From positions 124,551 through 150,159 of the forward strand of contig NW_003126387.1 in assembly GCF_000003605.2 (NCBI RefSeq): a stretch of DNA of 25,609 nucleotides. The letters are read 5' to 3'. Source of the stretch: Saccoglossus kowalevskii. Lineage: Eukaryota > Hemichordata > Enteropneusta > Harrimaniidae. Numbering within the stretch: the first letter of the stretch is position 1; every line of letters starts with the position of its first letter. The translations under genes were made by a program, and so were the position numbers. Shown here in pieces: positions 5,001 to 25,254 of the stretch. The notes under the pieces were generated by a model. It ran no database searches. It saw only the letters and a program-made list of their open reading frames with translations, and was not told the DNA's origin.

Positions 5001-5268
5001 ACTACTACGATGGCAAAAGAAATATTAATTAGCTTATGAATATTAATGAGATCATTAATATTAATTAGCAACCAGCACTCAAATCAGGCTGGGCAGAACC
5101 CTGTAGAAAAAATACAATATTTTAATTTTTTTAGCGAAAAAAAATCCCATCTAAAATTAGGTTATCAAGAGAATGTGTACAAATGCACGGTGGAATCGAC
5201 TCCTTCTCTACGATCGACAATACAAATTAAAATAAGTGACCAAATTTGCATTTAATTCCGAGTACATA
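2089..5268. other. Long gene-less stretch
   Basis: This is AT-rich sequence without a supportable exon. The 110-residue minus-strand frame at 3612-3944 is cysteine- and histidine-rich with no family resemblance and no flanking coding signal, and fits chance. A piece near 2760-2850 (TTTATTTTCGCTGA ... CCTATACTTTAC) resembles the inside of the element at 5269-5476. At 2560-2600 and 2885-2945 a GTTTCGGCTGT motif occurs in opposite orientations, perhaps another decayed element. Confidence 0.4.
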
Positions 5269-5476
5269 CTGTAAAATACTTTATTTTAGCATGCAATTTT
5301 TTTTCGCTATTTTCGCTGACAGAATGATTGTTAAAATAAAATCTAGCGAATATACCTTTTTTCCTATATTTTACTCTCAACTTGTCAAAAATCAGTGAAA
5401 ATAAATTCCCTACAAAAAACACCCAAAAAGTCTTTTCAGCGAATATTAATCCCAGCTGAAATAAAGTATTTTACAG
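5269..5476. mobile_element. MITE with TA target duplication (Tc1/mariner type)
   Basis: The ends CTGTAAAATACTTTATTT (from 5269) and its reverse complement (to 5476) match over 18 bp, then again after one mismatch. TA dinucleotides flank both sides (5267-5268, 5477-5478), the target duplication of Tc1/mariner-IS630 elements. At 208 bp and with no coding capacity it is a miniature derivative. Confidence 0.75.
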
Positions 5477-5659
5477 TATACTGTTATTGTCACCACAAAC
5501 AACTGACTTTGACAACCAGCCACCCCAATCTGCACATGCATGTACTGGCATTTCTAAACAAACATATAATGTCTCTAGGGTAATGTCTGTATTGAACATA
5601 ATAACCGAAGTCAGCCCAAAACAAGTGACGTAAACAAACCAGCAGTAACTGAGCGACAA

Positions 5660-6985
5660 GATAATTTGGAAACAAATTGAGCAATCAGTTACCAGATATC
5701 TCTGTGATAACAGTAACTGATATTTCACTTTGCATTTTTGTCTTAAAATAGGAATAAAGCCTGATTTACATTAAAAAAAATTCTAAAATTTGTTTTGTAC
5801 CTTAAATTTTTATAATTAAATTATTCACAATGAAAAGCACATACAAATAATAAATACTACAATGAAAAATTGACAGAACATTGTAACCGCAAAAACCGAA
5901 AGCATTTCAAAGAAACGTATAGCGGGTGGTGGTTGGCCGACATCCGGGCAAACAAGCTGACCTGCTTGTAGCACCAGTGACGTCAGATATGCTGAAAGAT
6001 TAGCATATATGATCACATGTCAGGTCATGTGATGGAACACAAATTTGCATACTACTAGTATGCACATATAGGTTTCGGGGAGCCACAGGGAATCGTGCAG
6101 CCTGATCAGGTTTGACGGCAATAGTTGGCTTGCCCTGTGAATAACACGCAATACAGCGACGAACTTAAATAAGGGCAACAGAAATAAAAATATATACAAG
6201 TAAATTAGAATCTAATGTATTTCCAAGAAACAAAATTAACGAAAATCAATTAACCAACATAATTTTTTTTAATTCACAGAAAAAAATATTGTTGATATGT
6301 AAATTTATTTGAAAGCAACTATATTCGTTAGGCACAAGTTTTATTGTAACTAGTGGTTTAACAAGCGAGTATTTTATTTTAGACTACATGGTACAAAAAA
6401 TAATTATTAGACATAACTAACAAAATGTAACATAAATTGTATAAACAACAAGGTTATGTAAATTTTGGATAACATGTTATTAAGCAAAAAAAATGTAATT
6501 TAATACTGATAAAAATTCATTTGATTAATTTGGAATAAATATGTGTCATTCAAAGAGAATATTTTGGGTGAGCAGTGCTAAAAAATTCCCAAAATTTTGG
6601 ATGATAAAATACTAAACGATTCACAAGTATTATAGAGACCAATTTTGCTTGCATGAAGTGGTATAGTACGATTAGTTATTTTACCTTGTATATTTTGATG
6701 GAACCAAACTACCAAAATAATTCCGTATTTACATTGAAAACACAAACTGCCTAGCCAAATTAATAGCTCTTTGCAGAGAAAATCATAATACAATACTTCC
6801 TAAATAACTTAAACTCTACCTCAATGAGGGCCTGTTGTCTCCAAATGATGTGACCTTCACACATAAAGTTGTATTACAAACCAGAAATACATTAATTTTA
6901 CATTTATATATCTAGAATCGACAACAATGTAAGAGTTATTAAAAATTTGGCACCTGGGTCGAACTAACCAAGCGACATGACAACT
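5660..6985. repeat. Tandem duplication, copy A (about 1.3 kb)
   Basis: Collinear similarity with copy B: ATAATTTGG/ATAATTTAG near the left end, ACCAGAT...TGTGATAAC (5691 against 7083), GAACATTGTAAC before the core, the core itself, and CTCCAAATGATGTGACC near 6840 against 8435. Between these the copies have many substitutions and indels. Ends are approximate. No transposon termini or reverse-transcriptase motifs are visible. Confidence 0.7.
5912..6075. promoter_or_regulatory. Near-invariant 164-bp core, copy A
   Basis: It differs from 7423-7586 at two positions with no indel. It contains inverted repeats at 5952-5969 (ACAAGC/GCTTGT), 5989-6006 (ATGCT/AGCAT), 6012-6033 (ATCACATG/CATGTGAT) and 6046-6064 (TGCATACT/AGTATGCA). 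It also has a CRE TGACGTCA (5978-5985), a perfect POU octamer ATTTGCAT (6043-6050), CACATG and CATGTG E-boxes, and the half-sites TGACCT (5958) and AGGTCA (6022). No frame is open throughout in either copy. An enhancer or structured RNA is plausible; the function is unknown. Confidence 0.5.
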
Positions 6986-7049
6986 CAGCACTAACGAATT
7001 GACACGAACACTTGGTAACCAAGCATCATGGCTATGACGAGAGCCACAG

Positions 7050-8600
7050 ATAATTTAGCACTTAACCGAACAATTAGTTCATACCAGATCTCCGAAGCGA
7101 GCACTGGTCTTGTGATAACTGGTTTTTCACTATGCATATTTTAAAATGTGAAATGAGAGTAAAGTCTGATGAAACACTATTATGCCACACACATACTAAA
7201 ATAACAAATTACATTATCGCAAAAAATATGTTTCACTAAAATTAGCCGTTACAGTACGTTATAATTTTTTTAATTAAATTAATCAAGCCGAAAAACTCAT
7301 CAAATTAAAATTTGGGCAAAAGCGTGCAATAAACAACAATAAATTGACGATACACCAGCATGCTATGTTCAAAAAAATAGAACATTGTAACAGCGAAAAA
7401 CCCAAAGCATTAACAAGTTAAGGAAACGTATAGCGGGTGGTGGTTGGCCGACATCCGGGCAAACAAGCTGACCTGCTTGTAGCACCAGTGACGTCAGACA
7501 TGCTGAAAGATTAGCATATATGATCACATGTCAGGTCATGTGACGGAACACAAATTTGCATACTACTAGTATGCACATATAGGTTTTGGTGAACCAATAA
7601 GGGAGCCTCAAGGAATCATGCATCCTGGTCATGTTCGATGGCATTAGTTGACTCGCCCTGTAAATAACACTCAAAACTCTGACTGACTTCAAAATTGCAG
7701 CAGAATTATAAATATTAAATAAAAAATATCTATCGTATTTTGAAAAAAAAAATTATGAGAGATATGAAAATCAATTGACTAACATTGATTTTTTTTAATT
7801 TATAAAAACAAAATGTTGACGCTTGAACAAATTTGAAAACAACTATTTACAAGATGCAAAATTTTGTTTCGTTTATCATGTGACTTGAAATAAGCAGTAT
7901 AAAAAATTATTTAATATCGTTGAATTTACTATAACAAATCATAATAAAATGTATATACGAAAAAATGTTTTGTAGTTTATGGTAAACATGTTATTGAGCA
8001 AAAACTTGTGAAATTTTATTTCTTACGAAAATTTATTCACGGAAAAGTAAAAGTATAAATGATTCAAAATATATAGAATTTTTCGGGTGTGCGATGTTTC
8101 ACGCAGCAAAAATTTTTATTTGGTAATTATTTATAAATTTTAATCTCACAAAATTGTGGACGATAAAACAAAGTTTCACAACTATTCTTATTGAGATCAA
8201 TTTTTCGCAGGATGTGGTATATACATGTAGTAAGATTAGTTATTTTATCTAGTGTACTCTGATGGAAGAAAATTATCAAAATAATTTAGTTTGTACATTG
8301 AAAAACACTAACTGCCTAGTCAAACTTTTCTCTGAGGCTCACTTTGGGAAACCGATAGCACTTTGGAGAGAAAATCACAAAACGGTACTCGTACTTCCTG
8401 AATAACCTAGACTGTGCCTCATCGAGGGTCTGCCCTCTCCAAATGATGTGACCCCATACACATACGAAGTCGTATGACAAACCAGAAATTCGTATTATTT
8501 CACATGTATACGACGTCAGCCGAATCGGCGACAATGCGAGAGTTATTAAAACATCGACAATTATTAACAATTCGTGGTTGAACTTAGTTGGCAGTCGAAT
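7050..8600. repeat. Tandem duplication, copy B (about 1.5 kb)
   Basis: The downstream partner of copy A, in the same orientation and nearly adjacent. The 97-residue minus-strand frame at 8316-8609 lies in this copy. Its part GHIIWRGQTLDEAQ..LFRKY has an in-frame counterpart in copy A (GHIIWRQQALIEVE..LFRKY), with a 6-nt indel that keeps frame there, but copy A is broken elsewhere. An ancient coding fragment is possible but not shown. Confidence 0.7.
7423..7586. promoter_or_regulatory. Near-invariant 164-bp core, copy B
   Basis: The same elements as copy A at a constant offset of 1511 bp. The two differences are transitions. One lies between the CRE and the ATGCT arm. The other shortens the ATCACATG/CATGTGAT arms from 8 to 7 bp. 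The CRE is at 7489-7496 and the octamer at 7554-7561. Confidence 0.5.
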
Positions 8601-8994
8601 ATAACACACGGGTCAGTGCAGGGAAGGCAACACCATGATATACACTAACGGGAAAACTTACTTTTTACCGTGGATCTCTATGTTATTACAAACGATCAAT
8701 ATCCACATCTGGGTGGGAGTTTCAGCGGCTAACTGGCAAGTTATTGAACGTTGAAATCACAGAATCAAGAACAATTACACCCCGTACTAAAGCAAAATCC
8801 GACTGCACCCTTTCTGTCGAGCTGTCGAGAAATTTAGTCTGCGTCTGGCCTTCATCATAATGTATGCAAATAAGGACCGCGCCAAATCATGCATGCATGC
8901 CGTGGAACTACGCAGCATAGAAAAGCAATATTTTGAAGCATCCACAAGTCACAAATTGCAACAGTTTTTCAAGGTATATCTGTAGAACTCTTAC
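8601..8994. other. Gene-less stretch between copy B and the 8995-9096 exon
   Basis: It would be intron 1 of the 9096 gene. It is slightly less AT-rich than its surroundings, with a GCATGCATGC run near 8890. No exon seen. Confidence 0.35.
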
Positions 8995-9096
8995 CTCTTC
9001 CGAAGTGTTATCTGCTACATTATCAGAAGACGTATTATCTGACTGTGGTCGTACATTTTCACTGTCCGTCGAGAGCTCCGCACTCACTTCCGCCAT
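8995..9096 (-). CDS. Likely first coding exon of an unidentified gene
   Basis: The ATG lies in ACAAGATGGCGGAAGTG, which combines a good Kozak context with a YY1 core and an ETS-type CGGAAGTG overlap typical of housekeeping promoters. The 34 codons encode MAEVSAELSTDSENVRPQSD, then a Ser/Asp/Asn/Glu-rich stretch ending SEE, followed by a strong donor GAG|GTAAGA in phase 0. The peptide is acidic and low-complexity, like many disordered N-termini, and I do not recognise the protein. Later exons should lie at lower coordinates, but none was found in 179-8990; they may be small or non-coding. A chance open frame is the alternative. Confidence 0.5.
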
Positions 9097-13173: not shown

Positions 13174-13408
13174 TTACATTTTCCAGTCCCAGGGAATACA
13201 CATTTCCCCATCTTCTGAAACTGAATAGAATTTTGATATTTTGAGTTTGAGTCCTTGTAAGCTGATGCCCGCCTCGTAGGGATGGTCAAGAAGTCTCTGA
13301 CAACACATCATCATTTCTTCGGGAGTCACTGCATTGTCTTTTGTCAGTGAATCAAGTTCAAGATCATTCTGACAATGCCTCATTATATCTTCCATTAATT
13401 TACTATAC
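13174..13408 (-). CDS. TCAIM: TCAIM exon 9 (C-terminus and stop)
   Basis: Acceptor TTTATTTGCAG bounds 235 nt coding for residues 427-504 and the TAA at 13174-13176. It contains MMMCCQRLLDHPYEAGISL and ISKFYSVSEDGEMCIPWDWK, matching the human end CCKRLLEQSLPYLHGMHL...SHFYSVMQDGDLCIPWNWKN. The end of the protein coincides with the family's usual end, so it is not truncated. Confidence 0.96.
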
Positions 13409-16400
13409 CTGCAAATAAAAAAAATATTTTCTTAATTCATTTTATTTATTTTTGTTTATTATTACAGTTCTACAGCTGTTCCAGGAGCCGGAAATGCAAT
13501 ATCAGATACAAGTCAATAAAATTACAAACAACAAGTCATGCATAGTTGGAACCTAAACATGTCAGAAGTATGGATTCAGAAGCTGATGCTTGATTATGAT
13601 TTTTTAACATTAAAATGACTGACATTCAGTCATCTTGTATCTAATCGTCGAATGAGTACTTGTCCATATTGGGAGATATTGCTCCGGAAGAGCATCAATT
13701 AAAACAAAATGGCCACGGTCTGCCATTTTGAATTGAATAGTTAATTAAACCAATATATCTGTATATCTATGACATGATGTATAATGAATATATAAAATTT
13801 GAACATAATCAGTTAAAGCATGTTGGAACCGCATTCACTAAAACAAAATGGCCGCCCGTCAACCATTTTGAATCCAATCTGAAAAAAAATTAAGTGCATC
13901 AGGAACCCATAATGTCTAATGATGTATAATCACTCAAAGCATGTCAGAGATATGGCACTAGAACCGCATTCACTAAAACAAAATGGCCGCTAGCCTGCCA
14001 TTTTGAATCTGATCTGAAAAACAAAATTATTTGCATCAAGGTGCTATAAAGTCCAATGTATGTACCAAGTTTGAACAAAATCCATCTGTAAACAGCCGAG
14101 ATCCGGTTTCCTGAATGCCAGAAAAAATTTGATGATTTTTCAGCACAAAAATGGCCACCAATCAACCATCTTGAATCAGATTGTGAAACAAACTGATGTG
14201 CATACGTATCATATTATGCATGATGTATGTGTGAAGTTTGATTTAATCAGTCCAGGCATGTCTAAGATACAGGTCCAGACAACACACGCATGCACGCACG
14301 TACGTACGTACGTACGTACGGATGCACGCACAGAGGTTAATCATCCATATAAGTTCCAGTTTTCGAACTGCGACCGAACAAGCCAGGCACAGTTCCTGTG
14401 TAAATGCATTTATTATTCACTGGGTTTTAATTTTCGCTGATACATGTGAAATAAAAATAAAATTATTTCCTTTGCAAATTTGTGAAATTAAAACACAGGA
14501 AATAAGCTCAAAACATCAAAATAGTGAAATTAAATGTCAGTGAAAATCAATGGGTCCACAGTATTTCAGACCTTCAGTGAGTTCGAAAATGATATTACAC
14601 ATGTGTGATATCTGGTTCCAGATTGTAGTGCATTTTAAAAACCCTAGTGCCACCAGCAGGTTGTTAATTGGATGATAAACTTGACTGCGACATGACTGAG
14701 ATTCTTACCTGAGATATTCCTGTTTTCGATACTTAGTTTCGTCTTGTTTATCAAGTATATACTCCAGCAACAAGACAGGTGGGTAGGTAGCTGGTACAAG
14801 AAACTGACCGGTTGATAGAAGTCTTACATCACCTGCATCACTAAGATAAATCATACATACGTTATGAGAGAAGACAAAACATTGCAGTGGCTGTATCAGC
14901 TGATATGTATTGCACAGATAAATAAATGTGGTATCAGTGCAGTATACTAAATAAAGGACGACTCACTGGCCATTATTACATGTATTAGAGGTTTTTATGA
15001 CATCATTGTACATTATCACACTATTATTTCACAAGTAAATTTATTTTTAAGAAAAATCCCCAAATTTAACTAAATTTGTTCAATTGTGATGGTGGTGATT
15101 TATAACAATAATAATGAACCCTTGCAGCGTTATTCGATTCAGGGAAGGGTTGAGATGCGATAATGTGTTTGGCTTTGTCTGACATATTATCTTGCCATAG
15201 ACGCTTCCCATCATCCAATATGGCGCTGTGGAGGTTCATTACTGTTTAATTAACAGGGCAGGGATGGTGATGTGCACAATTTAAGCAAACAACCCGTCCA
15301 AGCCCTGTTATCATGCTATAATAGGCAGTGTGGAGTCCATTATTTCAATTATATTACCCCAAAATGTTGAAAGATTGAATATACGTGATGCAGAAGCAGA
15401 AGCAGGCCATTCACGAGCATATGACATGCAAAAACCATGAAATGGAATAACCAGGATTTTTTTAAACACAAATGAATCATGGAGGTTTTGTTTTTTAAAT
15501 GGTCCATACAATTATTGTACTGGATATGGCAAACTCAGTCTTGTTTGTATGTTCATGCAATGACCACAAGCACTGCCCAGTTATTGTCTGATAACAGGGC
15601 TACATGTGGTACCGATCCACCAATGAGAACCTGGCATTTCAATAATGGGCAGTGTTCGATATTATAATTTGTACATTGTAATAATGATCGTAAACGTCGT
15701 AGTTGTGGTCAGCATGTTGTAAATGCATGAAGCCATGTATGTTATGATATTGACCAAAACAGTAAAATTTTAAAGATTCAGAAAGCAGTTGATTTGTCCA
15801 CCGTCCCTCAACACCGGTTGAGGGATGGTGACTTGTCATATGCACAGCACTGAGTTACGGTTAAGTCACATAAATGCAAAAAGTCTATTATATTGTAAGT
15901 ATTGTCATTTGCCTATGAACAATTTAATACAAGTGAAAGAATAACGTAAAGATGTCAATTTTCATTGAAGAACCAACCAAATTCCCGTAAGGTTACTTTC
16001 TGTGGTTAATGTGATGGGTTTAAATCCCTGCCCTTTATCTCATTATCCAGACATTGCCCCTAGACTACTAGTAATGTTGCAGTCCTAACTAAGGTACAAG
16101 GTCTGGTCTATACAAAAACAGTGTAGGTTTTCAAAATATGTGAGATTTGCAATAGCGTTTGACAAAATATGCGAGTTGATGCAATGCGGTTTACAAGTTA
16201 TGTGAGCATTACTACAGCGAATCACAATCTGCATATGTATACAACCATAGCAGTTTACAATCTGCATATGAATATAACTGTAGCAGTTTACAATCTGCAT
16301 ATCAATACAACTGTCGCAGTTTACAATCTGCATGTGAACACAACCATAGAAGTTTACAATCTGCATACAAATACAACTGTAGCAGTTTACAATCTGCATA

Positions 16401-19400
16401 TGAATATAACTGTAGCAGTTTACAATCTGCATATCAATACAACTGTCGCAGTTTACAATCTGCATGTGAACACAACCATAGAAGTTTACAATCTGCATAC
16501 AAATACAACTGTAGCAGTTTACAATCTGCATTATGAATACAACTGTAGCACTTTACAATCTGCATATGAATACAACTGTAGCATTTTACAATCTGCATAT
16601 GAATACAACTGTAGCACTTTACAATCTGCATATGAATACAACTGTAGCACTTTACAATCTGCATATGAATACAACTGTAGCAGTTTACAATCTGCATATG
16701 AATACAACTGTAGCAGTTTACAATCTGCATATGAATACAACCATAGTAGTTTACAATCTGCATATGAATACAACCATAGTAGTTTACAATCTGCATATGA
16801 ATACAACCATAGTGGTTTACAATCTGCATATGAATACAACCATAGTAGTTTACAATCTGCATATGAATACAACTGTAGCAGTTTACAATCTGCATATGAA
16901 TACAACCATAGTAGTTTACAATCTGCATATGAATACAACTGTAGCAGTTTACAATCTGCATACGAACCAGTTTCATGATACATGACATACTTACTTTTCC
17001 ACAAGTATTTCACAGTCTCGCAAAGCTCCTTGCTTTGGTCGGTCAGGTCCTTCACTCACATCACCATAATATGACCCGCTGTACTCCGAAATATACATGT
17101 GGTTTTTCATCCGATAATAATTAACAACAGAACGTAACATTCGAGACAACAGATTATGATATGCCTCTGCCAGCAATATGCGTATATTCTCGCGTCGAAT
17201 TATCTGAATGTCTCCAAGTTGTGTGGAGAGCGCCCTCTCTAGTACAGGAAGTTCATCTAACACTGCTTCATATTTGTCCACTGATCCAAGTAACTACACC
17301 AGGGGAAAGACATAGATAAAATGTTGCTATAGTTATTATTTTTTATATAAACTAGCATCCATAGTAAACCAATGCGATGGAGTATGCCTGCATTGGTACA
17401 TAGACCTTAAAATGTATTTTAAGGTCTATTATTGGTCGAACTATTTTGAAAGTGATTCAGTGGACCTATTGATACCTCCAAATGCTTAAAGCAAGAAGGT
17501 TGTTACCTGCGCACACGCAGAAATTGAGTTCCAAACGATGATAACAACACATGCTAAAAATGCAAAGGCTCAAGGGTAGAAACTTGTTTGTAAACAATGA
17601 CACGCTACGGCCATCTGACGTATGCGCAGGTGACGACTCCCCCCGCTTTAGAACTCAATCACAAACAAATCAAAATTCTCATTTGCGAAAAACAGATAAT
17701 ACTTTTCGACAATTCGGAGGATATCGCAAAGCATGATCATGTATCACCCAACACATAGCAAAGGTCAATGCGGCCATGTACTGCATACTTTGTACATCTT
17801 TTCAATAAAACCACTAGAACTGAGCAGGATGGAAAAATTATGGAAACTTGTTATGAATTTTGTTTTCAAACATGTCTGCTACCTCAGAAATATTGTGTAA
17901 TTATTGCATATTTGGAATTTACATTTCCTAAAAAAGATAGGAAGCCGGTACCCTGTACAATATTGAAAAATTATGGCACACAATAATTCATGAAGATACG
18001 TTGACAGACAATGTTAAAGGCTAAAACACAATATAAATCTGATAATACAACTTTAATTACAAGAATGATTAATGAAAATTAAGTTTCATAATCTGTGAGA
18101 AAGTGTCAGAAAATAATTATGAAACTTTATGTCCAGTGAGGTTGAGATTCCGAAAATATGTCTTGTTTTTTTATTCACTTTATTAAGCTACCAGGGTCTG
18201 CTCTATTCACTTACCATAAGCCAATGATGTGGGACATCCATGTTGCTTAACACAATACTACCATTTCTGTCAATACCTGTATTGCTACTGAATACGACAG
18301 AGCGACCTGAAATTTGATAAATATCGCACCAATATTCCATAACTATAGTGCTCTAGATATGCATGTTCTCAGTACATCTCCCAGAAACCATAAAATATGT
18401 GAGAGAATAAGATATTTTCAAAAAAACAAAATGGCTGCCACTTGGCCATTTTTGCTCTGAACATGAATTACAATGTAAATATGTTCTCTCCAACATTGTC
18501 TTGCTGTTACTAATTTCGTGAATAAAACGTCAAGGAAACAATGACATACATACACCTTTGAACATAGGGAAACATAAAGGCAGACGATTGAACAACCTGA
18601 TATTGATCAAACATTTTTGTAAACACATACTTATGATAACCACAATGCATCACTGTGTAAATATCAGAGTTACACCTTCATGTATGATCAAGTTTAGTGA
18701 GCACTGAATCTAATCATTGAAGTCCTCTTTCCAGCCTTAACCTTTTCACTACCCGTGTCCTCTTTCCACAAAATAGACCCGTTTATAGTCTGCACATTTC
18801 TTCAGAAGATTGAGACAAAAATAGCCAAATGTTTTGAGTAAAAACTGGAAATTGACTCAAATTTTGTCTGTTGGCTCCAAAATTAGAGTTCATTTCCAGA
18901 AACATTGAAGAATATAATAGAAAAAGTGCAAAAAAAAAATATGGGCGGGAAAGTCTAAGTGTTAAATTAGAATACTTACCTCTCAGGACATTCAATTCTG
19001 CTGCATGTTGTTCAGTTAATCTACACAAACTGTTGAGACACGCCCTGTATGCTGATAACCCCCATCCACTGTGCCAACTTATATTTCGTATTCCATATTG
19101 CTTACATAGAAATTCACGAACTTCTTTGATCTCTCTTTCAAGGGGTTTATTATCTTCTAATTTCTGACGTGCTTTGCTTATATTCGTCTGCATCCAGTAT
19201 CTAGAAATGGACACTACACTAGTCAGTCGTGCTGGTTATACCCAATATACACACACACAACAATGGCAAGGATTTCAGTCAGCTGTTTTCTGTAAAAGTG
19301 ATTAAGCCTTTCTCTGTCATAAATGTCCTGTCTCAACTTTATAACTTTTTTGAGCAAAAAAAGACATTGCCCAAATCTTTTTCTTTCTTTTTAATCCTAG

Positions 19401-22400
19401 TCATTGACAGCAGATGATGACAGATTCTTGATATGCTAGCTTTGTCTTAAAAAGTTAAAGGGGAGTGGTCATTGTGTGCTCGATATGGACCCATCGCATG
19501 TAAAACGCATTGTTTGTGTACACAAAATTCAGATACACGCTTCACAATCTTTAACACTGATGTCATTTCATTGATCATCAATTAATTCTCAATGTATAAC
19601 AATGTAACAGTATTCAGTAAAGAAGTAAAAACTAACTCACTGAATAACAAGTCATTGAAAATGACAGTCGCCATTAAATTTTTGAAAGTTCTCTTTGTGC
19701 TCGTCATATTAAAGCGGAGGGGTTGTTGTGAGCGTGTCCTTGAAACTTGAGTTCCAAGTGGTGTATACAACAAATTGTTTATTTACATCAAAACACGTAT
19801 TCCGTGTAGTAGTAATATGGCCAAAAATAAAAACAGCCGTTATTCGGCCATCTTTGATCTGATTATGAAACACACTGATATGTATGATGTATGTGCCAAA
19901 TACGAATGAAAATGGTACATAAATTGTGGAAATATAGTAGTAAGGCCAAAAAGTCAGATGGCTGTCAATCGGCCATCCTTGACCAGATTTTGAAACAAAT
20001 TGTCATGGACATGCATCCTAATATGTATAAAGTACATGTATGTGCCAAATTTGAATGAAAACTGACAGAGCACATCCAGGATACCGATCCAATTGCTAAA
20101 TAAATCGTCATGGACATGTATCCTAACATGTAAAATCTATGTACCAAGTTTGAATGACAACTGACAAAGCATGTCCAAAATACAAAAAAAACACAAGATG
20201 GCTGCCAGTCGGCCATTTTGAATCGAATCGCTAAACCACTGCTTGTGCTTATGTCCCACATAAGGTACTAGGCACATGCAAAGAATGAACGGAATCAGTC
20301 CACAGGATTCTGAAATATGACTCTGGACAGACTGACGCACGGATGGACGAACACACGAACGGATGGACGGACAGACTCAAGAACTCACGGACGATCGGGG
20401 ACATGTATCCTAACATGTATGATCTATGTACTAAATTTGAATGAAAACTGACCAAGCCAGTCGGCCATTTTGAATCGAATCTCCAAACCACTGCATATGC
20501 ATATGTCCCACATAAAGTACTAGGCACATGCAAAGAATGAACGGACGGACGCACAGACGGACAAAGGCCGAATTATAAGTCCTGGTTTTCAGACTTCGTC
20601 CAAACAGGGACTAAAAAAAAAAATTTTTATACCTTAAAGTCTGAGGTTTAGGTTTTGCTTGTTGATAAATCCTGTCACTGGAGGGTGCCGTTTTGCCGGT
20701 ATATGTATAGTACGTAGGATCCCATCTTATCGGCCTCGGAAATGATCCACCCCTTCTCTTGACGGGTATCGACTCTAGCCGATCCGTTGAAATCATACAT
20801 GACTTTAGGATATGTTTGACGGTTGAACGCACATTGTGAGATTTCACAGTAAATGTGACTGGGTGTAAATGGTTGATGGCTAAGAGGAGAAAACAAAAAA
20901 CAGTATACTATCCTAGTAGTTATGATTAGCACATTGCATAGAAACTGTTCATAACAGTTTCCTGTTGAAGGGGCCTTTCAGGTGAACAAAAAAAAAAAAA
21001 GTCTCTCATTTTTACTGCATTCTCAGAGATGGACTGGAACAGGAAGTCAGTAGAAGACAAGAAATTTGTGTGTTATTTTGGGGGAGAGTTGGTTCATGTG
21101 GGAGAAAACAGAGGTGTTAAAAATTCATTGTCTATTTTTGTTTGTGATTGGCCCTGGCAATGTTTGGGGGATCGTTACGTAGCTCCATTTTTGAGAATAA
21201 GAAACTGTTTAAAGGTGAGAAACACTTTTTATTTTCAACTGAAATCAGTGTGTTCAATTATGATGTTGTCTGTTTAGCCTTGGGCTGGTAGCTAATTTTC
21301 AAAATTTCCGAGATACTACTAATAAAATTATAATAACATTGATTTGCCATGAAAAAAATTTCTCACATAAAACTGTGAGGGCGCCAGACTTATTAAAAGA
21401 GTCTATCAAAAGTGAACCACACTGTGAGTGAACTAAGTTTTGGAATCTAATGATAATGAGTCAGTGACGTTGACAATCTCAAAATTTCAAATCAAAGTGC
21501 AGATAAAATGTGTAATATTGAAAAAATGGAATTCACATGTGTTACAATATAACATACCCGCTGTATGTAAGGATTCCTTGGCAGTGTTGTGTCTAAGATA
21601 AAAGGTCAGAGTCAGCGGTTCAGGATATGTTTCTCCCTGAAGAGAGTCTAGATATGAATTCAGCTGTTTCAAGGATGTTTCATTCACATTCTGTAAAATA
21701 GAAACTTTCTATTTGTCAATGTTGTGTTCACACAAAATACAAAAACCATTTGATATTCTTTGCCAGTTACTACCGGTATCAGATTAGTGTTTTCCTGGAT
21801 GAGAATGCTAGAAAATGAACTAACACACTACATACAATTAAATGGTCACACGTAAATGCTGCATGATCCATAAAACCAACAAATAGTATAGCATCATTGA
21901 ATTTCCTTTGAATTCCATGATTGCTATATCAGAGGAGCAGCAACCATTTCAACATACGGTAATAACCACTATGCTTGGATTTGTTGGAAACAAGAGAATA
22001 AATTAACATCTCCGAGAGAAGAGAACATTGACTGATATGATGCTATGATAACAGTAAACAAGCAGCCTGTCGGCTGAGATAGATCCGCTGTTAGCAATGC
22101 ACATTTCAATTAAAGAACAGAAGATATCATTAGAAAAAGAAGAATATGTATAGTATCAAAGCAATCAGACTTGCTGTTTTCAACAAAAATTTGAAAATAT
22201 CATTTTCCCCCAAAAAATATTCATTAAAATTAGATATTTGAAGATATTATCACGAAATGAACAAATCTGAGAGGTCCACATGTAGTATCTATATATGTAA
22301 TATCAAAGCAATCAGACTTGAGGTTTTTAACAAGAAGTCGAATATATCACTTTCCACCAAATGTTACAAAAATATTCACCAAAATTAGCGAATTGAAGAT

Positions 22401-25254
22401 ATCATCACAAAATCTGACAAACATCAAGTCTGAGAGAAGTCTACCCAAGGTATACCAAGTATCAAAGCATTCAGGCTTGTAGTTTTCAAGAAGAAATCGA
22501 AAAAGTAAAAAGTTGACATGGACGATGACGGACAATCACTCATATGATCAGCTCCGCTCGACAAAGTCAACAGCAGAGCTAATAATGAGAACACTAGCCA
22601 CCACGACCGACAAACAACAACTTTCTGTTGGGCTTACTCATCAATTATAAGGAGGAATATGAAATAAGCTATGAAAACTACACATCAAATAAAAGATGTC
22701 ACAATTTTACATCCTGCATTTAAGGCTCAGAAAACAAAAAGTTTTTGGTCAATTTGTATTCCACATGAAAATTTAATTTCCGACAAAAAAACAAAAACAA
22801 AGCTGTGAAAAAGACATTCTTAACTGATATGCATAACAATCTGAAAGACAACTATTTTTTGCTAGGCCTAATTTGATTTCAATCAATTTCAATCAAAAAA
22901 TCACATTTTGTGATTATTTCAAATTTATCATGGTACAGATCACTGTGGTGCTGTCATACATTGTATATGATTTTCTTCTAAGATTATCCAACTTACTCTC
23001 TCCTTGGGGTATTGTCCAAACAAATCAGGATGCACAGCAAAATAAAAAGGCCTCAGAATAGTGGACGCCTCCGATGTAGTCAGATTTCTTGTTGAAATTT
23101 GATTCAGAATAAAAATTTTATTGCACACAAATCTGTTGAGAAAAAATAATATAATTATTTTATTATTATTATTATTATTATTAATACATTAAATATGAAG
23201 TGTACTGTAAACCATTTTAATTTCGCAACTGACAAATTTTTCGTGAATCTTGTTTCAAACACCAAAACAGCAATATTGCTAGCTGACTTGCTGACTGATT
23301 AGCTATGCACATCTATAGAGAATTACATGATCAGATCAAGTTGAATCAAACATGGTTACCGGTACTAGAAGAACCCTGAGACAAATGAACCTCAACAAGA
23401 GACAGGGGTTTTTCTAGAAACAAACTTTAAGAGGGAGCACACCTTTGTTACCATTGGTAACACTATATTTGTTATAACTGATCATGATCTACTGACTGTT
23501 CCAGGTTCGGTAAGAGAGCACAAACCGGGGGTATGAGGGAGCTGCTCCCTGTCTGGAAGAACCCCCGGGGGATATCATAGCAAAACTCAGACATTTGAAT
23601 ATATAAAATAGAAGATCATTATGCGATTACTATTCAATTTTTAATTATTTTACCAAAAGTATAAATTGCTATATGATAAATTTTTAAGTTATCCAAGCAA
23701 AATGTATGGACTGACACAGTTGTCTGAAATGTCAAGACACAATCACTGCTGTGTCTAGTGCGTTAACACGCAGGCATTTAAGCTGAACAACACACCCTCA
23801 TAAACATGGATTGTCAGTTCTAATCACGTAATGATCTTGAGACACGTGCGTAACAAAACAGTCATCAAATTAGCTGACAATGTTGCTGTTTTGGTGTTTA
23901 GAACAATAAGGAAATGACAGAAACATTACCAAAAGTGAACTCACAGTAAAGTATTATTCATTAAAAGTTGATATTCCAATTAAGATAGTTCAAAATGGCA
24001 TCAAACTTGTCATCATATGCTGATCAACGTCAACATTTAGGATTACCTATGGATTTGGAATGGGGGGCTGGAGGAACATACATTGTATATTCATATTTTA
24101 TTCAAAAGTCCAGGGTAGTAATTTTTTTCTAATTTTTTTTCATATCATACAACAATATGAAATATGTTTTTCTGACAGTCAGCTGACATATGTGAGGAGT
24201 TTAGGGTTCTTTCTACATCGCGTACCAAACATGCCAGTGTTTTTTTCTCTCTTCAGCATTTTATTTTTACAAACATTTTTCAGGAACACCTAAAGTGTCA
24301 GATCATGTGAGTTATTAATGATTTACTACAATCATGCACATCAGGTGACCAGGTGCTCCACTACTGTAAATGATATAAACAAACAAACACAATTTGTTGG
24401 TATTCAACAGTAAGGCCAGACTTTTACTATCCCTTGTTTCGCGAACCCGTCGAATGAACAGGAGGCGAAAATGAAATGAAAATCAAATTTTATTTCAGCG
24501 TAATTTCTCGCGCCCGCCGACTTGTAAGTGCAAAAAATGGCTAAAAATTATTATTTTTATCTTCATTTTTTTCCCGCTCGCCGCATAACAAACCCAAGTT
24601 GCATTTTCGTGGGAGTATCATGATCAAAGTATCGAAGTCTTGCGCAGATGAGAAACAAGGTTATTACATGGAATAAAATGTTATTTCATTTCTTCTCTCC
24701 GATCAATGATCTCAATTACAATTCTTTGAGAATCACACAAATCTAATGGGAAAAAAGAATTAATTTTATTTATTTTTCGCCCTCCTCAAAAAAATTGCCT
24801 TATAAAAACTCAAGAAACAAAGAATAAAAAAGTCTGGTCTAACAAGACAAAACACGGCAACAATAATACTTGCTCGTGCTTGAGCAAAAACGTGAGTTAC
24901 ATGCGTATGTCATGGGAAGTACGCAGGGCTAGTTTATGAAACCAATTACAGCTCCCTGAGACGAACTGGCGTAAATCTTTTTTACGAAACTTACGGCAAA
25001 TCAAGATTGCTAAACAATACAGTAATATAACGTATTTACAAACAAATCATGCCATAACATAACAGCCATAGAAATATGAAAGTTATGGAAGTTAAATTAA
25101 ATCACGTCATGGACAAATCTGACAGAGCTCCACGTGAGCTAAGAACGTGATCGTTATCTGTGTCAGCGGGGTCACACGTGAAATTGTTATATGCGTCGGC
25201 AGGGTCACCCGTCAAAATATAAAAAAGTGTTTACCTCCTAAACAGTATCGTCAT
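13174..25254 (-). CDS. TCAIM: TCAIM homologue, whole gene (nine coding exons, spliced)
   Basis: The spliced coding sequence joins 25254-25235, 23132-22997, 21690-21558, 20879-20633, 19200-18980, 18306-18215, 17293-16995, 14840-14709 and 13408-13174. All introns are GT-AG and all phases fit, giving 1515 nt and 504 residues. By recalled comparison it is collinear with human TCAIM (about 496 residues): RPFYFAVHPD near residue 34, RPIRWDPTYYTYTG, an ISWHSGWG block, MDVPHHW, and CIPWDWK at the end. The family architecture is DUF4460 (N-terminal half, J-domain-like) followed by DUF4461. The vertebrate protein is mitochondrial, was named for dampening T-cell activation, and has, as I recall, been described as a DNAJ-type co-chaperone acting on 2-oxoglutarate dehydrogenase. 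Residues 1-27 have four basic and no acidic residues and suit a mitochondrial presequence. Introns are full of repeats but no exon is disrupted, so the gene looks intact. Identity is very sure; exon 1 is the least certain part. Confidence 0.95.
13409..14708 (-). other. TCAIM intron 8
   Basis: GT at 14708, AG at 13409-13410. Most of it is the hairpin-repeat array at 13600-14335. Confidence 0.85.
13600..14335. repeat. Array of hairpin repeats with ACGT microsatellite
   Basis: About five diverged units of roughly 110-170 bp, each starting with a short palindrome of the form AAAATGGCC...GCCATTTTGAAT (13707, 13845, 13980, 14148; a variant AATGACTG...CAGTCAT at 13613). Units share GATGTAT...AGTTTGA and GCATGTC stretches. 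The array ends in (ACGT)n at about 14287-14331. It is probably the body of a non-autonomous Helitron-like or Pearl-like element. Confidence 0.65.
14709..14840 (-). CDS. TCAIM: TCAIM exon 8
   Basis: Acceptor TTTATCTTAG and donor CTCAG|GTAAGA bound 132 nt coding for residues 383-427. It reads DAGDVRLLSTGQFLVPATYP, then a charged helix with LDKQDETKYRKQEYLR. The human counterpart is the ELGHFNIPTLCDPANLQWFI...KRKEEL stretch, so identity is lower than in other exons while order and length agree. It was found from phase and position, not from a long open frame. Confidence 0.88.
15797..15833. repeat. Hairpin-forming inverted repeat
   Basis: CACCGTCCCTCAAC and GTTGAGGGATGGTG form 14-bp arms with one mismatch around ACCG. 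A similar AGGGATGGTGA...GCACA stretch near 15262 suggests a dispersed small element. Confidence 0.5.
16215..16972. repeat. 33-bp minisatellite, 23 copies
   Basis: ACAATCTGCAT recurs every 33 bp from 16224 to 16951 (23 anchors). There is a single extra T near 16531, so the two parts are one base out of phase. Typical unit: GTTTACAATCTGCATATGAA followed by TACAACTGTAGCA. The left ten copies hold a four-unit (132-bp) higher-order repeat present twice in tandem (about 16248-16379 and 16380-16511). Right-hand copies alternate AACTGTAGC and AACCATAGT variants. A unit length divisible by three without stops keeps several frames open on both strands. Confidence 0.95.
16995..17293 (-). CDS. TCAIM: TCAIM exon 7
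   Basis: Acceptor CTGGTGTAG and donor GGAAAA|GTAAGT bound 299 nt coding for residues 284-383. This is a helical DUF4461 segment: LLGSVDKYEAVLDELPVLER, then IQIIRRENIRILLAEAYHNLL. It corresponds to the human region following HHHWTKLFERLPSYFDLQRR. If intron 7 were retained, translation would stop at once (AAG TAA at the donor). A 33-bp minisatellite begins about 20 bp downstream of the donor. Confidence 0.92.
17294..18214 (-). other. TCAIM intron 6
   Basis: GT at 18214, AG at 17294-17295. It contains a perfect 30-bp palindrome (17400-17429) and an inverted CCTGCGCA/TGCGCAGG pair near 17510 and 17625 that may bound a small element. No exon seen. Confidence 0.8.
17400..17429. repeat. Perfect palindrome, 14-bp arms, 2-nt loop
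   Basis: ATAGACCTTAAAAT, then GT, then ATTTTAAGGTCTAT. It is exact over all 14 pairs. Confidence 0.85.
18215..18306 (-). CDS. TCAIM: TCAIM exon 6
   Basis: Acceptor AAATTTCAG and donor CTTATG|GTAAGT bound 92 nt coding for residues 253-283. The end reads SIVLSNMDVPHHW, matching human GHVMLGTMDVHHHW. It is too short to stand out as an open frame and was found by phase and homology. Phase 0 at its 3' end fits exon 7. Confidence 0.92.
18307..18979 (-). other. TCAIM intron 5
   Basis: GT at 18979, AG at 18307-18308. It contains one lone hairpin-repeat unit (AAAATGGCTGCC...GGCCATTTTT near 18427) and otherwise AT-rich sequence. Confidence 0.8.
18980..19200 (-). CDS. TCAIM: TCAIM exon 5
   Basis: Acceptor CATTTCTAG and donor AGAG|GTAAGT bound 221 nt coding for residues 179-253. 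It encodes a charged helical stretch (KARQKLEDNKPLEREIKEVREFL), then NISWHSGWGLSAYRACLNSL and a further helix. This aligns with human DIRWQRSWGIAHRCSQLHSL. The reading frame stays open past the donor, so a longer open frame here overstates the exon. Confidence 0.93.
19201..20632 (-). other. TCAIM intron 4
   Basis: GT at 20632, AG at 19201-19202. The half nearer exon 4 is the repeat array at 19812-20612. Confidence 0.85.
19812..20612. repeat. Second hairpin-repeat array with ACGG microsatellite
   Basis: Repeated units with GGCTGCCAGTCGGCCATTTT-type palindromes (19820-19855, 19947-19977, 20196-20222, 20459-20473). Shared pieces are ATGTATCCTAACATGTA, CCACATAAGGTACTAGGCAC and AAAGAATGAACGGA, interrupted by ACGG/GGACGGAC runs at 20335-20395 and 20540-20565. 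It ends in AGTCCTG...CAGGGACT, then CTAA, compatible with a Helitron 3' end. It is related to the array at 13600-14335. Confidence 0.65.
20633..20879 (-). CDS. TCAIM: TCAIM exon 4
   Basis: Acceptor TCCTCTTAG and donor TTAAG|GTATAA bound 247 nt coding for residues 97-179. Segments recognisable in the family are VTFTVKSHNVRSTVKHILKSC (human VKFTLHTRDLLSTVLYILNSC) and RPIRWDPTYYTYTG (human RPIKWDKSYYSFTG). It ends in phase 2 with AG, completed to AGA by exon 5. Confidence 0.94.
20880..21557 (-). other. TCAIM intron 3
   Basis: GT at 21557, AG at 20880-20881. The plus-strand 82-residue frame at 21029-21277 has no family resemblance; I see nothing else. Confidence 0.8.
21558..21690 (-). CDS. TCAIM: TCAIM exon 3
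   Basis: Acceptor TTTTACAG and donor GCGG|GTATGT bound 133 nt coding for residues 53-97. It reads NVNETSLKQLNSYLDSL, then an LTLTFYLR strand, and matches the vertebrate NENSLKRLSVYLENL...LTFYVR region. In a J-domain-like fold this is the helix after the HPD loop. It ends in phase 1, matched by exon 4. Confidence 0.93.
21691..22996 (-). other. TCAIM intron 2
   Basis: GT at 22996, AG at 21691-21692. It contains the Helitron-like repeat ending at 22582; the rest is AT-rich. Confidence 0.85.
22140..22582 (+). mobile_element. Non-autonomous Helitron-like element, 3' part
   Basis: Three diverged tandem units share TATCAAAGCAATCAGACTTG (22158, 22302, 22459), ATATCATTTTCC and TCTGAGAG stretches, and are followed by GGACGATGACGGACA. 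The end forms a hairpin, AGCTCCGCT/AGCAGAGCT (22550-22558, 22572-22580), and finishes CTAA followed by T, the CTRR-T rule of Helitron 3' ends. The stem overlaps CTAA instead of lying about 10 nt before it. The 5' end (TC) is not located. Confidence 0.5.
22997..23132 (-). CDS. TCAIM: TCAIM exon 2 (end of presequence, HPD motif)
   Basis: Acceptor TTTCTCAACAG and donor AGA|GTAAGT bound 136 nt coding for residues 7-52. It contains RPFYFAVHPDLFGQYPKER, almost the same as the vertebrate TCAIM segment. His-Pro-Asp at residues 41-43 (23024-23032) sits where J-domain proteins carry the Hsp70-stimulating HPD loop. Phase 0 at the 3' end matches exon 3. Confidence 0.95.
23158..23183. repeat. (ATT)n microsatellite
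   Basis: Eight uninterrupted TAT/ATT triplets just upstream of the acceptor of exon 2, in the intron. Confidence 0.9.
23205..23946. mobile_element. Inverted-repeat element with TA flanks, about 740 bp
   Basis: The ends start CTGTAAACC and CTGTGAGTT (complement), both flanked by TA. About 50 bp inside are well-matched inverted arms: AAACACCAAAACAGCAATAT (23257 on) and GCTGTTTTGGTGTTT (to 23899). The outer arms are imperfect. The end sequence resembles that of the element at 5269-5476. There is no transposase. Confidence 0.5.
23403..23567. mobile_element. Nested small inverted-repeat element (hAT-like ends)
   Basis: CAGGGGTTTTTCTAGA on the left is inverted as TCTGGAAGAACCCCCG on the right, with GGGAGC/GCTCCC pairs inside. 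CAGGG-type ends suggest hAT, but no 8-bp duplication is visible. Confidence 0.45.
24414..24839. mobile_element. MITE with TAA target duplication (PIF/Harbinger type)
   Basis: Ends GGCCAGACTTTT and AAGTCTGGTC (inverted, one mismatch in the first 8) continue with looser similarity (CCTTGTTTCG and TTCTTTGTTTC). TAA flanks both sides exactly (24411-24413, 24840-24842), the 3-bp duplication of PIF/Harbinger transposons. At 426 bp and non-coding, it has an interior richer in CG than the flanks. Confidence 0.75.
25235..25254 (-). CDS. TCAIM: TCAIM exon 1 (start codon, presequence)
   Basis: This 20-nt coding piece reads MTILFR plus two bases, ending at donor AG|GTAAAC. An in-frame TGA lies about 40 nt upstream with no ATG between, which supports this start if the leader is unspliced there. 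Joined to exon 2 it gives an arginine- and phenylalanine-rich N-terminus with no acidic residue until position 28, as expected for mitochondrial import. A CATTTTCAG just upstream (about 25275) could be an acceptor of an extra 5' exon, but the frame and start would not change. Confidence 0.7.

Follow-up and report, generated by a model that had tools for sequence, protein, structure and literature searches.

The locus studied here raises the question of why one short block has stayed nearly unchanged in two tandem copies of a sequence that has otherwise decayed. It lies in a 25,609-bp stretch of the Saccoglossus kowalevskii genome (contig NW_003126387.1, positions 124,551 to 150,159 of the forward strand; hereafter the window, to which coordinates refer unless otherwise stated), for which a preliminary description was available.

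A nearly identical block within a decayed tandem duplication

The preliminary description had reported a core of 164 bp with two differences and no indel between the copies, and direct comparison of 5912-6075 with 7423-7586 bore this out with exact coordinates (2 mismatches in 164 bp, 0 gaps). At each mismatch (5988/7499 and 6033/7544), copy 1 carries T and copy 2 carries C. The edges of the core are sharp, with the adjoining base mismatched on either side (5911 and 6076). The surrounding sequence had been described as rich in substitutions and indels, which was confirmed by a single MAFFT alignment of both units, with identities counted over ungapped columns. In this alignment, the left flank (251 columns) was 73.3% identical with 12 indel runs and the right flank (852 columns) was 73.4% identical with 25 indel runs, i.e., about 73% identity and 37 indel runs outside the core with both flanks summed, and the core reached 98.8%. 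The same alignment yielded a K80 distance of 0.332 in either flank versus 0.012 in the core. By local BLAST, the identity of the right flank was 65% over 985 columns, gaps included.

Chance is excluded as the source of the core identity: the binomial probability of two or fewer mismatches in 164 bp is 5e-18 if divergence is taken as 25% and 1e-9 if it is taken as 15%. Outside the core, the longest run of the MAFFT alignment with at most two mismatches was 23 columns, and the maximal run of this kind among 2000 shuffles of the flank columns was 56. The core also differs in base composition, with a G+C content of 45% versus 30-37% in 1-kb windows across 5001-9000. The coordinates of the core, the duplicated units, and the features discussed below are collected in Table 1.

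Table 1. Positions in the window of the duplicated units, their conserved cores, and associated sequence features
Feature	Position	Strand	Details or basis
Conserved core, copy 1	5912..6075	.	2/164 differences versus copy 2; 2 genome places found
Conserved core, copy 2	7423..7586	.	Pairs with 5912-6075; same genome search
Tandem duplication unit, copy 1 (decayed)	5660..6955, ends approximate	.	MAFFT alignment and nhmmer match
Tandem duplication unit, copy 2 (decayed, longer)	7050..8567, ends approximate	.	MAFFT, nhmmer
Perfect inverted repeat (6-base arms, 6-base loop)	5952..5969	.	Sequence
TGACGTCA, CRE-like word	5978..5985	.	Word match
Perfect inverted repeat (7-base arms, 8-base loop); one pair broken in copy 2	5987..6008	.	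Sequence
Perfect inverted repeat (8-base arms, 6-base loop); outermost pair altered in copy 2	6012..6033	.	Sequence
ATTTGCAT, POU octamer-like word	6043..6050	.	Word match
Perfect inverted repeat (9-base arms around a single central base)	6046..6064	.	Sequence
Imperfect terminal inverted repeat / closing stem	5912..6076; 5912-5921 with 6067-6076	.	End pairing
Putative exon 1, coding; 34 codons starting with the ATG at 9096	8995..9096	-	Sequence and ORF

Copy number and coding potential of the core

Searching the core against its own genome (572,110,611 bases in 4830 contigs) recovered it at 2 places, both in the window, with E values up to 0.001 and again with E values up to 10; this search scored 2 of 2 candidates and skipped very common words, so that very diverged or common relatives may escape it. 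The preliminary description had singled out a high-copy repeat as a possibility to be checked, and with these 2 places alone found in 572 Mb at either threshold, the core is not one. We also searched the window and the fetched neighbouring stretches for further copies of the unit with an nhmmer profile and BLAST, and no convincing third copy appeared. Apart from the two known copies and matches of the core to itself in inverted orientation, the unit profile in nhmmer gave E values of 3.1 or worse, and BLAST without the low-complexity filter returned short pieces. The best of these is a 50-bp piece at 13413-13460 on the minus strand, which resembles part of the right flank of the duplication (80% identity, E 1.2e-4).

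These searches bear on the idea that the core is mobile or viral sequence, either a small inverted-repeat element or a site-specific insertion, to which we give very little credence. Inverted ends and internal palindromes, both present in the core, would fit such an origin. A small inverted-repeat transposon would be expected in many dispersed copies, however, and the own-genome search found the 2 places only, which occupy matching positions of a shared older duplication. In addition, no target-site duplication was seen by eye, and exact matches were found neither in viral contigs (three core words searched) nor in prokaryote genomes (one core word searched).

None of the listed stop-to-stop frames spans the whole core, in agreement with the earlier statement that it lacks a fully open frame. 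One minus-strand frame is open across 5912-6019 and the counterpart 7423-7530, with a TTTCAG inside it, and could thereby suggest that the block holds a minus-strand exon, either protein-coding or poison, that was duplicated as alternative exons. This frame, however, covers just 108/164 bases, and the sole core difference within it replaces Tyr with Cys, with 0 silent changes, which makes it unlike a frame under selection at the protein level. A coding alternative exon would be expected to keep one frame open across the block and to show silent changes, neither of which was found, and no good donor was noticed by eye. These observations support the conclusion that the core does not look coding, and we judge an exon at this position to be highly improbable.

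Genomic context of the duplication

On the minus strand, stretches within 13174-23188 matched DUF4460 and DUF4461, with five of the ten scanned proteins above curated Pfam cut-offs; we take these to be domains of TCAIM and the neighbouring gene, accordingly, to be TCAIM-like. The putative exon 1 comes after these stretches on the same (minus) strand and ends at a GTAAGA donor (from 8994 downward); its single Pfam match was below cut-off (E 0.11). The two cores sit 1.4 and 2.9 kb beyond this putative donor, and both would fall in the first intron of a putative minus-strand gene starting at 9096. Further along the contig, a minus-strand frame within contig positions 104551-114550 encodes an acidic protein that matches zf-C2H2 in 2 stretches (Pfam; E 6.8e-14), in which four C2H2 fingers were counted by eye. 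As a guess, this zinc-finger frame could be the remainder of the gene beginning with putative exon 1 at 9096 of the window; joining the two is conjectural, since 15.2 kb of the sequence that separates them read N. The N content of the five neighbouring 10-kb stretches was 10000, 5236 (contig positions 104551-114550), none, 7578, and 6284.

Inverted repeats and candidate regulatory words in the core

Core copy 1 contains four perfect inverted repeats (Table 1), three of them with arms of at least 7 bases, and copy 2 has two with arms of at least 7. Three repeats with such arms were reached by 0/1000 dinucleotide shuffles of core copy 1, and 6/311 half-overlapping tiles of the window, including the core's own tiles, matched or exceeded the repeat count of the core. 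When all 165-mers of the window were considered (A/T-only repeats excluded), four runs reached three repeats with arms of at least 7. The three such runs other than that of the core are made of A/T runs or (ACGT)n repeats in which the counts overlap; copy 2 does not belong to the four because the change at 5988/7499 breaks one arm. The ends of the block can also pair with each other, forming a closing stem with 9/10 Watson-Crick pairs in copy 1 and 8/10 in copy 2, whose last base (6076) lies one past the conserved block and is unlike between the copies. Of the 25,444 165-mers in the window, 4 (among them that of the core) have at least nine end pairs, and 87/20,000 random blocks reached this end pairing when a slack of 3 bases was allowed at each end. 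These statistics indicate that the conserved stretch stops about where the inverted repeat stops.

The same block also contains words that resemble transcription-factor binding words, namely TGACGTCA, ATTTGCAT, TCATGTGA, and two oppositely oriented AGGTCA half-sites, and it contains TCACATG and CATGTGA as well. We take TGACGTCA to be CRE-like and ATTTGCAT to be POU octamer-like. Within the 6012-6033 repeat alone, the TCATGTGA word, an AGGTCA half-site, and two E-box words (CANNTG) were found. TATGC words occur four times in copy 1 and three times in copy 2, which has one fewer owing to the change at 5988. Counting against an array of sites, these words are found elsewhere in the window too (CRE 1, M-box 3, octamer 6, AGGTCA 9, and TATGC about 68). 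Both core differences lie in repeat arms, and conservation is no weaker in the loops and unpaired stretches than in the arms; a packed site array fits this identity somewhat better than a fold alone would.

We put the chances at about even that the core is a conserved noncoding element, probably cis-regulatory, of which selection keeps both copies. Purifying selection is suggested here by the comparison of two tandem copies within one genome. Mechanistically, about 1.3-1.5 kb of the putative first intron would have been duplicated in tandem with the block carried along, after which the remainder of both units would have drifted to about 73% identity, and both elements would have stayed nearly unchanged under purifying selection. 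Each core would then act as a cis-regulatory module (i.e., an enhancer or an intronic promoter element) of the minus-strand gene from 9096, in which paired and inverted recognition words for dimeric transcription factors would be closely packed, and occasional conversion between the cores may help their likeness. We infer the regulatory activity, the binding factors, and the target gene alike from the letters of the two copies and their setting. This explanation does not require the stem that the block ends can form. The preliminary description had taken the pattern to point to purifying selection or repeated gene conversion and the block, if selected, to be likely regulatory DNA or a structured RNA; the noncoding nature of the block has stood, and on its kind the evidence points both ways, with transcription-factor-like words present as well as hairpins and a possible closing stem.

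Structured RNA and gene conversion as alternative explanations

That the core encodes a structured RNA, likeliest in the minus-strand intron as an intronic ncRNA or a cis-acting pre-mRNA fold with both copies kept, is possible though on balance doubtful. Such an RNA would be laid out as four hairpins and a closing stem of GAAAC.TATA with TATA.GTTTC. In its favour, copy 1 with short flanks folded with z scores of -3.60 (plus strand) and -3.44 (minus strand), with 0/200 shuffles as stable on each strand, and without flanks with z scores of -4.68 (plus) and -3.75 (minus); the best z score among 622 tiles (-6.0, at 5987 on the plus strand) overlaps core 1; and the block ends nearly match the stem with 9/10 pairs. 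Copy 2, however, folds less well, with z scores from -2.70 to -3.45 (with flanks, -2.82 on the plus and -2.70 on the minus strand; without flanks, -3.45 and -2.79, respectively), and its tiles are absent from the 20 best tiles listed. In total, 10/622 tiles (40 shuffles each) had z scores of -3.4 or stronger, and one of these overlaps core 1. With flanks, the plus-strand optimum keeps the closing stem in both copies, but the plus-strand centroid of copy 2 does not, and the minus-strand optimum of copy 2 drops it. The two copies folded without flanks differ by one pair on the minus strand and by 51 on the plus strand, and the minus folds stay nearly identical since each difference there replaces an A-U pair by a G-U pair; against giving this much weight, random transition pairs preserved the minus fold equally in 20.75% of 400 trials. 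Moreover, palindromes fold alike on either strand and as DNA, the comparison comprises two sequences only, with 2 differences and no double change, and the loops are no less invariant than the arms. The whole window had 0 Rfam matches at gathering, and a permissive Rfam scan of 5700-7800 gave two matches below gathering (E 3.8 and 4.9), one of which lies outside the core.

Particular kinds of RNA were considered as well. A tRNA scan of the window (bacterial code) found none, and a microRNA was rejected by eye, with each inverted repeat being just 18-22 nt. A Pol III gene was likewise rejected: a T5 run lies 17-28 nt past the block on the minus strand in both copies, and no internal boxes were found by eye. 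An Sm-like AATTTGTG lies between hairpins on the minus strand and was set aside; it overlaps the octamer word and has 4 further occurrences in the window. Small nucleolar RNAs are intronic structured RNAs, and the core resembles them in being compact, duplicated, predicted to fold strongly, and situated in a putative intron, but it differs from them in having no Rfam match at gathering and no C/D or H/ACA boxes recognizable by eye. It seems to us quite unlikely that the core belongs to an undescribed class of intronic structured RNA, in which four hairpins would be gathered by a closing stem of 9-10 bp into a 165-nt molecule, with sequence and fold both constrained and two copies kept in one intron as dose or pairing matters.

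A different account requires no function at all: about 165 bp would have been copied from one unit to the other by a single recent gene conversion, or would be what is left of repeated conversions. The length of the block is ordinary for a gene conversion tract; the near-identity over all kinds of position and the abrupt edges would be explained as well, and the 105 columns adjoining the core show slightly fewer mismatches than the remaining flank columns (20/105 versus 274/998; Fisher P 0.064). We nevertheless regard this account as unlikely. Gene conversion generally requires long near-identical stretches, and the 73% identity and 37 indel runs of the units beside the core make repeated conversion hard. 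Furthermore, the block ends nearly meet an inverted repeat, a coincidence that few random blocks reach even with slack, and the block stands out from its surroundings in palindromes and G+C content. The poor match of the flanks and the coincidence of the edges speak against conversion, although neither is proof. Selection and conversion may also act jointly, as a constrained core would be the likeliest place for conversion to start.

Relation to known conserved elements

Duplicated conserved noncoding elements are a known kind of sequence, and the core selection we favour would place the present block close to them. As in such elements, the paralogous noncoding copies outdo their surroundings in similarity, with the block far more alike than the co-duplicated flanks (98.8% versus 73.3% and 73.4%), and the low copy number expected of them was observed, the 2 candidates of the genome search being both window copies. 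The core copies differ from them in being tandem and within one putative intron. The term “duplicated CNEs” is used in PMC4008492.

Frith and Ni (2023; PMC10735318) presented 25 segments that are regulatory and conserved across bilaterians, and the core may be of this kind. As these segments are described there, they share with the core the character of an extremely conserved noncoding block near or within a gene. Their conservation, however, is between species, whereas that of the core is between tandem copies in one genome, and the genes given in that report are developmental ones, with neither TCAIM nor the present gene noticed among them. The strings “palindrom” and “secondary structure” each occur 0 times in its main text. 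Among the titles and abstract openings listed by literature searches, none reported the present element.

If selection is responsible, the flanks would serve as a neutral clock, against which the cores would show near-total constraint on 164 noncoding bases. This constraint would persist where redundancy should relax it, suggesting that both copies are needed, and such a need would be testable as dosage or division of labour, whether of duplicated enhancers or of duplicated RNAs. If conversion is responsible instead, the locus would offer a very short tract between poorly matched tandem copies.

Other repeats and predicted folds in the window

Several further repeats were observed in the window. 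A 33-bp minisatellite of 22.5 copies (16224-16966; TRF score 1169) has stretches of the minus-strand DUF4461 gene on either side and is open in several frames. Short dispersed repeats with a AAAATGGCC...CCATTTTGAATC motif occur in several copies at two places (13673-14192 and 20176-20545), and a short tandem array with an 18-bp period (5021-5069; 2.7 copies) adjoins a AATATTAAT palindrome. Other strong fold tiles were found at 6889 on the minus strand (z -4.9) and within 15089-15909 (at 15089, 15499, and 15745; z -4.2 to -4.8).
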